Part shown: one piece after another, positions 25,457 to 31,379 of the stretch | How positions within the stretch are numbered: the first letter of the stretch is position 1 | Layout of the letters: each line of letters opens with the position of its first letter | Origin: Bacteroidota bacterium | GTDB taxonomy: Bacteria; Bacteroidota; Bacteroidia; 2-12-FULL-35-15 | NCBI GenBank assembly: GCA_023251835.1 | Contig: JAHEXZ010000039.1 | Location: forward strand, 1-46,918 | Reading direction: 5' to 3' | Length of the DNA: 46,918 nucleotides | Made by a program: the position numbers and the translations under genes | Notes under the pieces: generated by a model | The model's database searches: none | The model's input: only the letters and a program-made list of their open reading frames with translations | Told to the model about the DNA's origin: nothing

Positions 25457-25644
25457 AGATAATCGTTAAGAAATTTGCTACAAGTTGCTATATAATTGTA
25501 TATTAGCTTATTAAATGGAATAACTACTTTGTGTTGAATTGTCAGATAAAGTTTTTCGGCTTGGTTCAACATTCGAAAAAATGATTTTTTTGTGACTTAT
25601 AATTTATTGAAAGTCAAATTTTTCATAAAAAAATTTATTTTGCA

Positions 25645-25676
25645 CCCAACCTTTGATGTATTTTGAACGTGTATAT
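25645..25676 (+). promoter_or_regulatory. ECF-type promoter upstream of the sigma factor operon
   Basis: CCCAACCTTT (25645-25654), 13 bases, then CGTGTATAT (25668-25676), 36 bases before the sigma factor ATG. AACC-type -35 and CGT-type -10 boxes are typical of ECF sigma factors. The same two blocks occur upstream of the PKD protein gene at 29055, which makes autoregulation likely. Confidence 0.7.
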
Positions 25677-25712
25677 TTTTAGAAAAAGAAACTTTACCGG
25701 TAAATATGACTA

Positions 25713-26273
25713 ATGAACATTGAACTTGAACTCATCACGGCTTGTATTAATAGGGAAAGAAGAGCAGAGTATGAGCTTTATAAAACAACATACAGTTATT
25801 TAATGGGGATATGTTTCAGATATACTAATTCCCGGGAAGAAGCAGACCAGATGCTAAACCTTGGTTTTTTAAAAATTCTTAAAAATCTGGATAAATATAA
25901 GCCTGAAATTCCATTCAAAGTTTGGATAAGGAGGATTATGATAAATATAATTATTGATGAATTTAGAAAAGAGAAAAGACATAAAGAAAATGTTGAATAT
26001 GTGGAGGAGTATTATGATAATAGTAATTATGCCGAGCAAAATAATGCACTTGCCAAAATGAATGTGGAACAGATTCATGAATTGATTACCAAGCTTCCAC
26101 CGATGAGTCAAAAGGTGTTTAACTTGTATATTATTGACGGTTTTAGCCATAAAGAGATTGCAGATATGCTCAACATGTCTGAAGGAACATCCAAATGGCA
26201 TTTGAATTTTTCGCGTAGTAAATTAAAAGAAATGTTGGACAAACTTATTTCTCCTTTAAAGACTGCACAATGA
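25713..26273 (+). CDS. ECF-type RNA polymerase sigma factor
   Basis: A 186-residue sigma-70 family protein. Region 2 spans about 12-85 (YLMGICFRYTNSREEADQML, FKVWIRRIMINIIIDEFRKE) and region 4 about 120-172 (LITKLPPMSQKVFNLYIIDG, HKEIADMLNMSEGTSKWHL). It directs RNA polymerase to a special promoter class. The upstream element at 25645-25676 and its twin at 28983-29013 are the likely targets. Its stop overlaps the start of the next gene by an ATGA junction, so sigma factor and putative anti-sigma protein are made in a coupled fashion. Confidence 0.94.
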   Translation: MNIELELITACINRERRAEYELYKTTYSYLMGICFRYTNSREEADQMLNLGFLKILKNLDKYKPEIPFKVWIRRIMINIIIDEFRKEKRHKENVEYVEEYYDNSNYAEQNNALAKMNVEQIHELITKLPPMSQKVFNLYIIDGFSHKEIADMLNMSEGTSKWHLNFSRSKLKEMLDKLISPLKTAQ

Positions 26274-27820
26274 AACAGGAAGAAGATTTTGATGAGATAA
26301 TTCGCCAGAAGTTTGCTGAAAAGGAATTTGTTTTCAACGAAGAAAACTGGGAAAAAGCAGAAAGAAAGATTGATGCTGCAAGAAGATTTAAAAAAATCTT
26401 ATTATGGTCAACTGTCTTTATAACCGGTTTTTTCTGTGGTATTGGAGTAACGTTTGTATTTATTCAAAAAAAGCAAATGAATGATAGTATTGTTTTAAAT
26501 GGTTTTTCTCCTAAAAATCATTTAAATGTGACTATTGAAAACAATGTAAACAGGGATAAAAATAATACTTCAAATGATGCCTATACTGCGAATAATATAA
26601 ATGAACCCAATGAAACTGGAAATGACAAAGAGAAAGATGGTTTCATAAATGATAAGAATTATAACACATCTATACTTGCCCAGCACCAATCCCATAATGG
26701 GATAACGATGGAAGGAAAACGTTTGAACATGCAGAATGAGCAAAATAGAGTGACTGGTGAACAGAATAATAAGAATGAGTATAAAAATAAAACTGGAATT
26801 TCAGGGCTAATTGGTCAGAAAAGTGAAAAAACAGATAAAGAAAGTAAAAGAAGAGAAAAGGTTGAAACTGCTGAAACAAATAAATTGAATGAAAAATGGG
26901 ACAAATATGAGGAAACTATTAGTAAAGCAGAATCAGACCAAAGTTTGCAGGTAAGAACTTCAAAAGTAGAGTCAAGCAGTAACATTGAAAAAACAGATTC
27001 TGCAATACATGACTTTAATTCAATTGTCAACACTCAAAAAGATGTTATAACTCACATATTTAAAGATGCTGAGGCAGCAGCAGTTATGAAAGATAGTTCA
27101 TCTTTGAAGTCCGATTCGGTTTTGGCTGCTGACCAAAACAATCTGAAGGGCACATCTGTTTTACCAGGCGGATTGTCCAGTGCTACTTTTATTTCTTTAG
27201 TCATTGGAACTAATGTTGAACTTGGATGGCAGTACGGAGAAGCCTCTGAAGGACGTGGATTTAACCCAATTGCGGGTGTTGAAATAAACCATTATGTGAA
27301 TCATAAGTGGATGGTATCATCTGGTATTCAATATGGAAGCATTGCTTATCTGAAAGCCAGTGAAAAGCAATTTTCAAAAACAACCTATGGTTTCGGTTCA
27401 GTTTCTGTTGATACAATAATAAACACTACATTATTACATTATGCTGTAGTACCTGTTTTGTTAGAATATAATCTGAATGATAAAAATGCAATTAGCATAG
27501 GTGGTTCTGTTTCTTATCTTGTTAATACAAATAGTAAAGTTTCTACCCGTTCAACTGCCATAGGCCCGATGTCGGGCAATACCGGTGAAGTAAAAACAAT
27601 TTCAGATATGGAAAGTGGTTATTATACAAATGCATTTAATAAATGGGATGCATCACTATCAATAGGTTATCGCAGAAGGATAACCCAACGGCTTACGGCT
27701 TCTGTTCTAGCTAATTGTGGATTATTAGATATAAAAAACAATGCTTTCTTTTCGAGAGAAAAATTTGAAAGAAATAGCGGTATAAAATTAGTTATTTCTT
27801 ATACTTTATTTGATTTATAA
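26270..27820 (+). CDS. Putative dual membrane-spanning anti-sigma factor with C-terminal outer-membrane beta-barrel
   Basis: A 516-residue protein with unusual architecture. Residues 1-42 are charged and lack a signal peptide (DFDEIIRQKFAEKEFVFNEE resembles short Bacteroidota anti-sigma segments). One membrane helix follows (about 43-65, ILLWSTVFITGFFCGIGVTF). Residues about 66-300 form an Asn/Lys/Glu-rich, probably disordered linker. Residues about 303-516 alternate like the beta strands of a small outer-membrane barrel (SLVIGTNVELGWQYGEAS, WDASLSIGYRRRITQRLTAS) and end in the strand KLVISYTLFDL. The layout matches the Dma class of anti-sigma factors described in Bacteroides, which link an outer-membrane barrel to a cytosolic sigma-binding domain. 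Gene order (directly after the sigma factor, coupled) supports this. Sigma binding is inference. Confidence 0.75.
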   Translation: MKQEEDFDEIIRQKFAEKEFVFNEENWEKAERKIDAARRFKKILLWSTVFITGFFCGIGVTFVFIQKKQMNDSIVLNGFSPKNHLNVTIENNVNRDKNNTSNDAYTANNINEPNETGNDKEKDGFINDKNYNTSILAQHQSHNGITMEGKRLNMQNEQNRVTGEQNNKNEYKNKTGISGLIGQKSEKTDKESKRREKVETAETNKLNEKWDKYEETISKAESDQSLQVRTSKVESSSNIEKTDSAIHDFNSIVNTQKDVITHIFKDAEAAAVMKDSSSLKSDSVLAADQNNLKGTSVLPGGLSSATFISLVIGTNVELGWQYGEASEGRGFNPIAGVEINHYVNHKWMVSSGIQYGSIAYLKASEKQFSKTTYGFGSVSVDTIINTTLLHYAVVPVLLEYNLNDKNAISIGGSVSYLVNTNSKVSTRSTAIGPMSGNTGEVKTISDMESGYYTNAFNKWDASLSIGYRRRITQRLTASVLANCGLLDIKNNAFFSREKFERNSGIKLVISYTLFDL

Positions 27821-27841
27821 CTTATACCATTGATAACAATA

Positions 27842-28960
27842 ATGAAACGACAGTTTTTTTTGTGTAGTGTTATTTTTATTTGTCTTGCAGCCTGCAGGAA
27901 AGATTATCCGGTTGATAATCCAACGGCTTCGCCTGTATTTTATTTTAAAGGTGTTGTGAATGGTTCTCCCGTAAATATCAATGCAGGAATAGATAATTAT
28001 TATATGTATTCATCCTTTATACAGGATTCTAACGATGTATATAACTTTTTTGGAGAGTTCAGACAAACAGTTTGTACAAACTGTACTAATAAAATAAAAT
28101 TTCAGATAAATGATCAGGCTTCTACTGCACCTAATTCTCCTTCTTTAATAAACGTTTCTTTAGTTTCCGGATATTACGCTATACAACAGGTTGATTCTAT
28201 TCAGATAGGTACTCCAACAGAGTATATGGTAAGCTTTTCCCCTGATGACAATGATTCAACTGCTCTCTATATATGGGACTTTGGCGATGGAACAACCAGC
28301 CAGCTGTTTGCTCCAACTCATTTATTTGATCACCCTGGTTATTACAATGTGTGTTTAACAGTTAATTATAGTGGGTGCACAAATTCTATTTGTAATCAGA
28401 TTAAAGTCGGAATAGCTGAACCTTCATGTGATGTATATATTGTTGATTCTCTCATTTCAGCAAATACTGTTTTACTAACAGCCTCTGCCAACGGGATGTC
28501 TGGCATGTATTCCTGGGATTTTGGTGATGGCACAACCAGCATATCCAACTTGAATACCATTACACATACTTATACAATTCCTGGTGCTTATACAGTATGT
28601 GTAGAAGCAACGGGCCAGAATTGCAGTTCTACCATTTGTAGAAACGTATCAACACAGAATTTTACCGGTTGTGTTGCTAATTATTATTCTTATATACAGG
28701 GAATAAGTCAAAATCCATTTTCATTATCAAATATTATAGTTGAGTGGACTGATAATTCGGGAGCTATATATACATCAAATATGGCCGCACAATCAATTGA
28801 CAGCTATTTCCAAATAATTTCAGTAGAAGATTACTTAGCTAATGAAAATGGCGAGCCCACCAAAAAATTACATATAAGGTTCAAATGCGATTTATTTAAT
28901 GGTAATGATGTTATTTCTATTGATAACGCTGAAGCCATTATAGCTGTTTCATACCGATAG
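27842..28960 (+). CDS. PKD-domain lipoprotein
   Basis: A 372-residue lipoprotein. MKRQFFLCSVIFICLAACRK carries the lipobox LAAC, so I start at the ATG at 27842 rather than the TTG at 27830. After an N-terminal domain of about 115 residues there are two PKD domains (about 127-195, YIWDFGDGTTSQLFAPTHLF; about 205-275, YSWDFGDGTTSISNLNTITH), each with paired cysteines. The last 95 residues are a separate beta-rich region. It is 21 bases behind the putative anti-sigma gene and co-transcribed. PKD domains are extracellular beta sandwiches used in adhesion or glycan contact. It may be a surface partner of the larger PKD protein that follows. Confidence 0.87.
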   Translation: MKRQFFLCSVIFICLAACRKDYPVDNPTASPVFYFKGVVNGSPVNINAGIDNYYMYSSFIQDSNDVYNFFGEFRQTVCTNCTNKIKFQINDQASTAPNSPSLINVSLVSGYYAIQQVDSIQIGTPTEYMVSFSPDDNDSTALYIWDFGDGTTSQLFAPTHLFDHPGYYNVCLTVNYSGCTNSICNQIKVGIAEPSCDVYIVDSLISANTVLLTASANGMSGMYSWDFGDGTTSISNLNTITHTYTIPGAYTVCVEATGQNCSSTICRNVSTQNFTGCVANYYSYIQGISQNPFSLSNIIVEWTDNSGAIYTSNMAAQSIDSYFQIISVEDYLANENGEPTKKLHIRFKCDLFNGNDVISIDNAEAIIAVSYR

Positions 28961-28982
28961 TGAAAAATTATTTCTATTTCAA

Positions 28983-29013
28983 CCCAACCTTTTGTTTTTC
29001 TCAGCGTGTATAT
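28983..29013 (+). promoter_or_regulatory. ECF-type promoter upstream of the PKD repeat protein
   Basis: CCCAACCTTT (28983-28992), 12 bases, then CGTGTATAT (29005-29013), 41 bases before the ATG at 29055. Both blocks are identical to those upstream of the sigma factor gene, with one base less spacing. Confidence 0.7.
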
Positions 29014-29054
29014 AGATAGATAGAAAGAAATATAAACTTTAAATACAAGAACCC

Positions 29055-31268
29055 ATGAGAACAACTTTAACAAATCAAAAAAACAATTTTAAAAAACTTA
29101 CAAAAGTTTTAGGAATTGCAGCACTTACAGGTTTGGGCTTAAAAGCAAACGCACAGCAGCAATGTATAGCAAACTATACATATGTTAACGATAACATCAA
29201 TACTGGAAATGTAATCTTTACCAACACATCGTCTACCGGAAATTCACAATTGACATATTTCTGGAGTTTTGGCGATGGTACTTCTTCAAATCTGGAAAAT
29301 CCCAACCATGTATTTGCTAATACCGGAACATCCGAAGCAGTGGTGTGTTTAACAATTTATGATTCAGTTTGTCAAAGCACTTTTTGCGATACAGTAATTA
29401 TAGGAGGTATTACCAACGTTTGTCAGGCTTATTTTTATTCAACACCTGATTCCAATTCAGTGAACGGAATCAACTTTTTTAATTACTCCAATTCGGGAGG
29501 AACACCTAACGCCAGTTATTCGTGGTATTTTGGCGATAACACTACTTCCAATCTACAAAATCCAAATCATATATATGCTAATGCAGGAACATATCAGGTA
29601 TGTTTAACAATTGCCGATTCAAATGGCATTGCTTGCAGTTATTGTGATAATGTTGTTGTTGGAAATAACACTGGTGGCGGTTGTATGGCCTATTTCTACG
29701 CAGAACCAGATTTGAATTCGATAAACGGAATTAATTTTTTGAATTATTCATCCTCTGGAGGAACACCATCTAACAGCTATTCCTGGGATTTTGGCGATAA
29801 CACTGCTGCTTCCAATCTGGAAAACCCCAACCACGTATATGCCAATGCAGGAACATATATGGTATGTTTAATGGTTACTGATTCAAATGGCATTGCTTGC
29901 AGTTATTGCGATAATGTTGTTGTTCAAGATTCAACCGGTATCGGTTGCCAGGCTTATTTTTATGCAGAACCGGATTTTAACTCGGTGAATGGAATAAACT
30001 TTTTTAATTATTCTTCTCCCGGAGGAACGCCAAGCACCTTTTCCTGGGATTTTGGCGATAACACCCCTGTTTCCAATGTTGCAAACCCTAATCACACATA
30101 TGCCAATGCGGGAACATACACAGTATGCTTAACATCGAACTCAAATGGCAGTGTTTGCAGCTATTGCGATTACGTTGTTATTGGGGATAACACCGGAGGT
30201 GGCTGTCAGGCCTATTTCTATGCAGAGCCAGATTCGAATTTGCTAAACGGCATCAACTTTTTCAATTATTCCAACTCCAATGGAATATCAAATACACTTT
30301 TCTGGGACTTTGGTGATAACACTCCAGCTTCCAGTGTTGGTAATCCAAACCACATATATGCCAATGCCGGAACATATATGGTATGTTTAACAACTGTTGA
30401 TTCAAATGGTACCACTTGCAGTTATTGCGACAACGTTATTGTTGGAGATCAAACTGGTAACATCTGCCAGGCTTACTTTTATGCAGTCCCCGATTCCAAT
30501 TCGGTGAATGGAGTGAGCTTTGTGAATTACTCAGGAATAAATTCAGGTGGAACAGCGAGCCTCTTTTTCTGGGATTTTGGTGACAATACTACTTCCAATT
30601 TGGAAAACCCAAGTCATGTATATGCCAACCCGGGAACATATCAGGTATGCTTAACAATTGCTGATTCAAATGGCATTACTTGCGTTAATTGCGAAGATAT
30701 AGTTGTTGGTGATGGTGGATGTCAGGCTTATTTTTACTGGGAATCTGATTCCAGTTCGGTGAATGGAATAAGTTTTTCAAATAATAATCAGGGTGGAATA
30801 TCCAACACGAATAGCTATTTATGGGATTTTGGTGATAACACTACCAGTTCTAATTTAGGTACCCCAAACCACATATATGCTGATACAGGAACATATTATC
30901 CTTGTTTAACCATTATTAGTCAAAATGGCAGCACATGCACCTATTGCGATAGCATTGCCGTTCTGGCTATGTTGCCTTCCGGTATTAATGAATCTGGGAA
31001 TGTAAATGTAAATGTGATGCTTGAAAATTATCCAAATCCTTTTAGTGGGAATACAACTATTAAGTATAAACTTTATAAAGGAACCTCTGTTGAATTGAGT
31101 GTTTTGGATATCCTGGGTAATAAAATAGCTACAATAGAAAATGTGCACAAAAATGCAGGAAATTATTCATTGGTATGGAATGCTGATAATGTTGCAGAAG
31201 GCGTATATTTTCTGAGGATGAATGTAAATGACCAGGTTTCTATTAAAAAAGTGATAGTTTCAAAATAA
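29055..31268 (+). CDS. Seven-repeat PKD surface protein with T9SS sorting domain
   Basis: A 737-residue secreted protein. The signal region spans residues 1-33 (KVLGIAALTGLGLKANAQ). From Cys37 there are seven PKD units of about 85-90 residues, each built on C-x-AYFY...NGINFFNYS...WDFGDNT...NPNHIYANAGTY-x-VCLT...C-x-YCD. Four cysteines per unit are mostly conserved and probably form disulfides. A short linker leads to a type A T9SS sorting domain (YPNPFSGNTTIKYKLYKG to KKVIVSK). T9SS would export it and attach it to the surface or release it. Its own ECF-type promoter suggests separate control by the sigma factor encoded at 25713. A clear terminator follows at 31287-31323. Confidence 0.93.
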   Translation: MRTTLTNQKNNFKKLTKVLGIAALTGLGLKANAQQQCIANYTYVNDNINTGNVIFTNTSSTGNSQLTYFWSFGDGTSSNLENPNHVFANTGTSEAVVCLTIYDSVCQSTFCDTVIIGGITNVCQAYFYSTPDSNSVNGINFFNYSNSGGTPNASYSWYFGDNTTSNLQNPNHIYANAGTYQVCLTIADSNGIACSYCDNVVVGNNTGGGCMAYFYAEPDLNSINGINFLNYSSSGGTPSNSYSWDFGDNTAASNLENPNHVYANAGTYMVCLMVTDSNGIACSYCDNVVVQDSTGIGCQAYFYAEPDFNSVNGINFFNYSSPGGTPSTFSWDFGDNTPVSNVANPNHTYANAGTYTVCLTSNSNGSVCSYCDYVVIGDNTGGGCQAYFYAEPDSNLLNGINFFNYSNSNGISNTLFWDFGDNTPASSVGNPNHIYANAGTYMVCLTTVDSNGTTCSYCDNVIVGDQTGNICQAYFYAVPDSNSVNGVSFVNYSGINSGGTASLFFWDFGDNTTSNLENPSHVYANPGTYQVCLTIADSNGITCVNCEDIVVGDGGCQAYFYWESDSSSVNGISFSNNNQGGISNTNSYLWDFGDNTTSSNLGTPNHIYADTGTYYPCLTIISQNGSTCTYCDSIAVLAMLPSGINESGNVNVNVMLENYPNPFSGNTTIKYKLYKGTSVELSVLDILGNKIATIENVHKNAGNYSLVWNADNVAEGVYFLRMNVNDQVSIKKVIVSK
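29163..30975 (+). repeat. Tandem PKD-coding repeats (seven units of about 260 bp)
   Basis: Seven in-frame direct repeats. Units 2 to 6 are the most alike, sharing long stretches such as TATGCCAATGC and TGGGATTTTGG, while units 1 and 7 are more diverged. This is the pattern expected when internal copies are renewed by unequal recombination. Confidence 0.85.
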
Positions 31269-31286
31269 GGCTTGTTTAGCCGATAG

Positions 31287-31323
31287 AAAAAAAAGCGCAG
31301 CCGTATGGTTGCGCTTTTTTTTT
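31287..31323 (+). terminator. Rho-independent terminator after the PKD protein gene
   Basis: AAGCGCAGCC pairs with GGTTGCGCTT around GTAT (one G-T pair), flanked by A8 and T9 runs. It can work on both strands and so also ends any transcript from the DMT transporter gene. Confidence 0.93.
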
Positions 31324-31379
31324 AATACGTTTTCATAGAAAGAACTCCATCAGTGCCTTGCTAATGAATACACCAATAC

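Follow-up and report, generated by a model that had tools for sequence, protein, structure and literature searches.

The locus described here raises the question of whether an ECF sigma factor, governed by one protein that reaches from the cytoplasm to the outer membrane, sets which proteins a cell makes for its surface. It lies in a 46,918-nucleotide stretch of Bacteroidota DNA (the whole stretch analysed, called the window below) and consists of four plus-strand genes (25713-31268) with a hairpin at its end (31286-31323). The reading frames of the sigma factor, the second protein, the lipoprotein, and the PKD protein lie where a preliminary description of this DNA had placed them, and the reported translational coupling of the first two is seen as an ATGA overlap. 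For the lipoprotein, the ATG at 27842 is a more likely start than the TTG at 27830. The features are as follows.

25645..25670, plus strand: promoter-like motif CCCAACCTTT-N13-CGT, 43 bases upstream of the sigma start
25713..26273, plus strand: ECF sigma factor, 186 aa (Pfam sigma-70 regions 2 and 4)
26270..27820, plus strand: predicted Dma-family trans-envelope anti-sigma protein, 516 aa (ATGA overlap with the sigma stop)
26270..26407, plus strand: its cytosolic segment, residues 1-46, with invariant W27 (homolog conservation, AlphaFold2)
26408..26464, plus strand: its inner-membrane helix, residues 47-65 (hydropathy 2.03, AlphaFold2)
26477..27163, plus strand: its disordered periplasmic tether, residues 70-298 (AlphaFold2 pLDDT)
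27164..27817, plus strand: its C-terminal eight-strand barrel, residues 299-516 (OMP_b-brl_2, AlphaFold2)
27842..28960, plus strand: lipoprotein, 372 aa, with two PKD domains and conserved N- and C-terminal parts (lipobox LAAC, Pfam)
28983..29007, plus strand: second promoter-like motif, CCCAACCTTT-N12-CGT, 48 bases upstream of the PKD gene
29055..31268, plus strand: seven-PKD protein, 737 aa, with signal peptide (Pfam: seven PKD domains and Por_Secre_tail, 4e-11)
31029-31265, plus strand: T9SS type-A sorting domain of the seven-PKD protein (Por_Secre_tail)
31286-31323, plus strand: terminator-like hairpin of 17 pairs with a T-run, at the 3′ end of the locus

The short cytosolic segment, single inner-membrane helix, and disordered linker that had been proposed for the 516-residue protein are all present (hydropathy, AlphaFold2). 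Basic residues precede the helix, and the tether, rich in N, K, S, and E, spans ~230 residues (125-349 in relatives). In the AlphaFold2 model, for which 32 homologs served as input, pLDDT is mostly <50 at residues 72-255 and 271-296 and mostly >90 in the strands from 306 to 515; a long helix is also modelled. The Pfam family OMP_b-brl_2 matches residues 331-489 (E = 2e-8), and structure comparison of the barrel with VIA gives Z scores of 16.0 for OmpA (3.7 Å over 168 residues), 15.8 for NspA, and 14.8 for OmpW. The C-terminal domain therefore models as an eight-strand outer-membrane barrel and not as a non-barrel periplasmic fold, and it is predicted from the model to insert in the outer membrane. 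None of the proteins of the locus matches a FecR domain at E ≤ 1 in Pfam or NCBIfam. By analogy with described systems, we have little doubt that the 516-residue protein would act as an anti-sigma factor, its cytosolic segment being the part that presumably binds the sigma factor.

The preliminary description had recognized in this layout the Dma proteins reported in Bacteroides, and sequence comparison upholds that assignment. We matched profiles built solely from the clade of the window protein against anti-sigma proteins encoded beside NigD in Bacteroidales, which are of the Reo/Dma1 type by gene order and not by name. The N-terminal profile matches three of the four (E from 3e-6 to 3e-4) and the barrel profile matches the NigD-linked homologs (7e-9 to 5e-5), both in a small search set; against about 40 proteins, E-values for the whole-protein profile range from 2.5e-11 to 4.8e-6. 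Genes for NigD, sigma, and anti-sigma factors adjoin at these NigD-linked loci of Bacteroidales-like genomes (in the order NigD-sigma-antisigma in L196 and L199), and P. vulgatus has the same arrangement around M0N98_03760-03762 (PMC9308784, PMC13114119). Layout and profile matches to the NigD-linked Bacteroidales anti-sigma factors thus both place the window protein in the Dma/Reo family. A neighboring ECF sigma factor of group ECF21 is a further mark of Dma proteins; here the neighbor is certainly a sigma factor of the ECF type. The NigD_N domain has no match in the home genome, and a profile of the lipoprotein finds no match to NigD (E near 1).

A homolog of the 516-residue protein occurs in 29 of the 148 genomes searched. 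Every one of the 28 full-length homologs considered adjoins a homologous sigma factor gene, with overlaps or gaps mostly of ≤35 bases, and the pairing of sigma factor and barrel is thus conserved among related genomes; the lipoprotein is the next gene in 21 of them. Since this search had started from the anti-sigma protein, we repeated it in named GTDB genomes with the sigma factor alone as query, and found the full triad at 26 of the 28 uncut, called loci among the 32 closest. The hosts in this second search are MAGs and isolates whose labels include Saprospiraceae, Crocinitomicaceae, Cryomorphaceae, Flavobacteriales, and Chitinophagales. In all, the triad was seen at 48 loci across many families, and its cultured carriers include Phaeodactylibacter luteus KCTC 42180 (L099) and Brumimicrobium salinarum LHR20 (L121). 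Triad loci group together strongly on a sigma factor tree with 112 rows (10 changes vs. 36.5 in shuffles), and some Dma loci of the same branch have no lipoprotein. A T9SS type-A gene is immediately adjacent at only 25 of the 48 triad loci. We conclude that sigma factor, Dma protein, and lipoprotein are a conserved module and that the exact seven-PKD cargo gene is local. A chance origin of the locus is excluded, because gene order, tight gaps, and sequence are all conserved.

A further sigma-Dma pair, lacking the lipoprotein, is found at L037:573-2536, L038:6521-8439, and L079:8001-9949; genomes G079 and G117 carry both kinds of pair. The variant motif CCCAACATTT lies upstream of the sigma gene of the lipoprotein-less pair, which may represent a paralog of the system whose promoter specificity has shifted. 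Beside the same kind of sigma factor, in a sister branch, we also observe anti-sigma-like proteins of another build (L126:1728-2990, L137:8536-9801, L141:8536-9813, L154:8619-9836, and L058:6638-7894). These have the same N-terminal segment and helix, followed by two PKD domains and a CHU_C type-B T9SS sorting domain, with no barrel (Pfam run on four of the five). An inner-membrane protein bearing a T9SS signal could possibly be a decoy-cargo sensor of secretion.

The lipoprotein family has a conserved core, with AG..YYM.S in the N-terminal part and G..Y.S....Q...S.F.I......N..G..TKK in the C-terminal part. PKD domains are absent from the lipoproteins of two loci (L086:10037-10672 and L094:10081-10686), which at about 205 residues contain nothing beyond the two conserved terminal parts and offer a compact target for structure determination. 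We rejected PKD alone as a criterion for the family, as a phylum-wide search on that basis matches mostly other PKD proteins. The model of the lipoprotein is all-beta with good confidence; Foldseek and VIA return essentially only PKD domains, and the terminal parts are without a reported match, which is no evidence for a new fold. Distances among barrels correlate with those among the lipoprotein C-terminal parts after removal of sigma factor distances (partial r = 0.33; reached in 0 of 500 permutations, a test that is anti-conservative because the sequences are related). Because the lipoprotein is made together with the sensor, has no promoter of its own, and varies in its C-terminal part in step with the barrel, we lean slightly toward the view that it acts with the barrel.

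ECF promoters typically carry AAC at -35 and CGT at -10. The upstream regions of the sigma genes in relatives have in common CCCAACCTTT, 13 bases, and CGT. With spacers of 11-14 the 4.1-Mb home genome contains just two matches, one before the sigma gene and one before the T9SS PKD gene (spacer 12); window shuffles give an expectation of 0.02 in the window. Sites with a single mismatch were dismissed as noise in the home genome, where there are three extra vs. ten in the backward control. Counted in a relaxed form across loci, the motif lies upstream of 26 of 47 sigma genes and 14 of 36 nearby T9SS genes, the remaining 21 sigma genes having no recognizable motif; no Dma gene has it (0 of 48), the lipoprotein gene does in 3 of 48 cases, and among other genes the count is 5 of 365. 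This distribution fits one sigma-Dma-lipoprotein operon together with a cargo gene transcribed from a separate promoter of that type.

The spacer is 13 bases in 41 of 45 motif sites, 11-14 being permitted. Five relatives (G008, G117, G079, G027, and G030) carry between 5 and 10 sites apiece, and the backward control has 0 or 1. Across the 148 genomes, we count 51 sites in the 29 with a Dma homolog vs. 15 in the 119 without, the latter number being near or under the backward-control rate. The CCCAACCTTT motif was not seen upstream of the NigD and sigma genes of Bacteroidales. From its position and distribution, it is very likely that the sigma factor recognizes CCCAACCTTT-N13-CGT. Two incomplete genomes of the same genus (G021 and G022) have 4 and 2 motif sites and no Dma homolog was found in them; the triad may be missing from these assemblies.

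What, then, would such promoters control? We retrieved the genes downstream of about 30 motif sites, 25 of which have a gene start close by. Sixteen of these 25 genes encode a T9SS sorting domain above the Pfam cut-off (12 type-A and four type-B; type-B domains were scored with Pfam, since a custom profile under-detected them), and four more have lipoprotein signals, as judged by eye. Were as many as one gene in eight T9SS cargo, this share would still have P near 1e-9. Counts of 64 and 65 type-A sorting domains in two genomes suggest that the true background is below an eighth at least there; the other genomes counted have at least 150. Scanned with Pfam, the 25 genes comprise cargo, lipoproteins, and unassigned genes, and no T9SS machinery family is among the hits. 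In the home genome, one cargo gene carries the motif vs. at least 150 T9SS type-A domains, so the sigma factor cannot be a general T9SS regulator. The preliminary description had proposed that a signal is answered by making a surface protein, and the motif common to the sigma gene and the T9SS PKD gene supports this output half of the idea. It is likely that the sigma factor drives a surface/T9SS regulon, the composition of the linked genes pointing most likely to its own operon plus selected surface cargo.

Two smaller observations concern sites of this kind. In genome G027, contig C51 encodes tandem 40-residue membrane peptides (MNTKKEISQTITYKVSIGTVSTLLSLAIIAVVYFSVLHVL) at about 53420-54270 (L259:250-1100), the first two copies each preceded by CCCAACCTTT-N13-CGT. 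Upstream of a full gene for the T9SS PKD protein lies a 70-residue fragment that matches this protein (L031:4642-4854); it has a motif site of its own and is likely a decayed or partial duplicate.

Taken together, we assign a probability of about 75% to a sigma/anti-sigma switch that spans the envelope and governs a selection of surface-exposed proteins. The cytosolic segment of the Dma protein would keep the ECF sigma factor inactive at the inner membrane, and the long disordered tether would join this inner-membrane end to the eight-strand barrel in the outer membrane. There the co-transcribed lipoprotein would partner the barrel, most likely in a co-sensing or braking role. Disturbance of the outer-membrane end, or binding to it, would free the sigma factor to transcribe the operon that encodes it and a few genes for surface proteins from CCCAACCTTT-N13-CGT promoters; at the window locus the surface output would be the T9SS-exported seven-PKD protein. 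We favor outer-membrane disturbance as the trigger, since the homologous Reo responds to envelope-damaging toxins (PMC9308784), and by that analogy give it even odds.

The role of the lipoprotein is where the strongest competing account arises. It could be a mere output, as NigD is: The barrel alone would sense outer-membrane stress, and the lipoprotein and the PKD protein would be protective or adhesive surface products. NigD lipoproteins do form the regulon of the homologous EcfO-Reo system (PMC9308784, PMC13114119), and the same branch includes Dma loci that do without the lipoprotein. However, its gene sits within the sigma-Dma operon, with a motif of its own in only three of 48 cases, and stays third in order over long distances, and variation in the C-terminal part of the lipoprotein follows that of the barrel; we regard this account as a real contender with about one chance in three. 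It is unlikely, by comparison, that the circuit is a secretion feedback, with T9SS activity or the PKD protein on the surface as the signal read by barrel and lipoprotein, and with cargo synthesis tuned to it by the sigma factor. T9SS cargo is the main class of motif-linked genes, the sister anti-sigma proteins themselves bear a T9SS sorting domain, and in P. gingivalis PorA ties a sorting-domain protein to SigP signalling (PMC7712824). Yet T9SS machinery is missing from the motif-linked genes, and the homologous Reo responds to outer-membrane toxins without T9SS (PMC9308784).

Two further alternatives bear on the components themselves. Another sigma factor or regulator might read the motif, the locus merely holding two of its promoters; the assignment draws on position and co-occurrence, and these genomes carry many ECF sigma factors. 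We consider this improbable, as the motif precedes the sigma gene itself in 26 of 47 triad loci and tracks the presence of the system across genomes. Least probable is an ordinary inner-membrane anti-sigma factor whose C-terminal domain remains periplasmic. An uncleaved N-terminal helix would indeed make delivery of the barrel by BAM unusual, but the OMP_b-brl_2 match and the eight-strand barrel, with Z scores of 16 to OmpA and 15.8 to NspA, argue against it, and a tether of 230 residues (125-349 in relatives) is long enough to cross the periplasm.

Dma and EcfO-Reo are already known as a kind of system, from gut Bacteroides and Phocaeicola, where the outputs look diverse (PMC13088901, PMC9308784, PMC13114119). 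What is new relative to the published Dma/Reo descriptions that we compared is the conserved partnership with a lipoprotein, the promoter signature, and the enrichment of the regulon in T9SS cargo; literature searches for the motif and for the combination of PKD, anti-sigma, and T9SS returned no match, and an earlier mention is possible. The triad, a promoter signature through which the regulon can be read out from sequence, and regulons with T9SS cargo in several lineages open the family to tests beyond the gut, and suggest a common theme in which barrel-tipped anti-sigma factors tune what the cell displays on its surface.

The closest parallels are Dma1-Das1 and Dma2-Das2 of Bacteroides thetaiotaomicron, which share the four-part layout of cytosolic segment, membrane helix, disordered tether, and barrel, with an adjacent ECF sigma factor (PMC13088901). 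Signs of autoregulation are common to the window system and Dma2-Das2, where das2 goes up on deletion of dma2; unlike at the window locus, the third gene of the dma2 operon encodes a DUF4943 protein, and the output in that species is nigD1 for dma1 and PULs/OMVs for dma2, as opposed to T9SS cargo (PMC13088901). EcfO-Reo of B. fragilis and Phocaeicola vulgatus likewise has an anti-sigma factor running from cytoplasm to outer-membrane barrel and a surface-protein regulon, but one that includes NigD lipoproteins (PMC9308784, PMC13114119). ECF sigma factors control T9SS-related genes also in PorXY-SigP of Porphyromonas gingivalis (PMC7712824) and in the SM6 sigma-ECF promoter class of Flavobacterium psychrophilum, which has a CGT box at -10 (PMC9723704). 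Those act on the T9SS machinery, SigP through a two-component system (PMC7712824, PMC9723704), whereas here it is genes for cargo that bear the motif, and the sigma factor is paired with a trans-envelope anti-sigma protein. As in FecIR/TonB-dependent signalling, a signal at the outer membrane would reach an ECF sigma factor through an inner-membrane anti-sigma factor; there the path is divided among several proteins, whereas here one protein is proposed to span the envelope.
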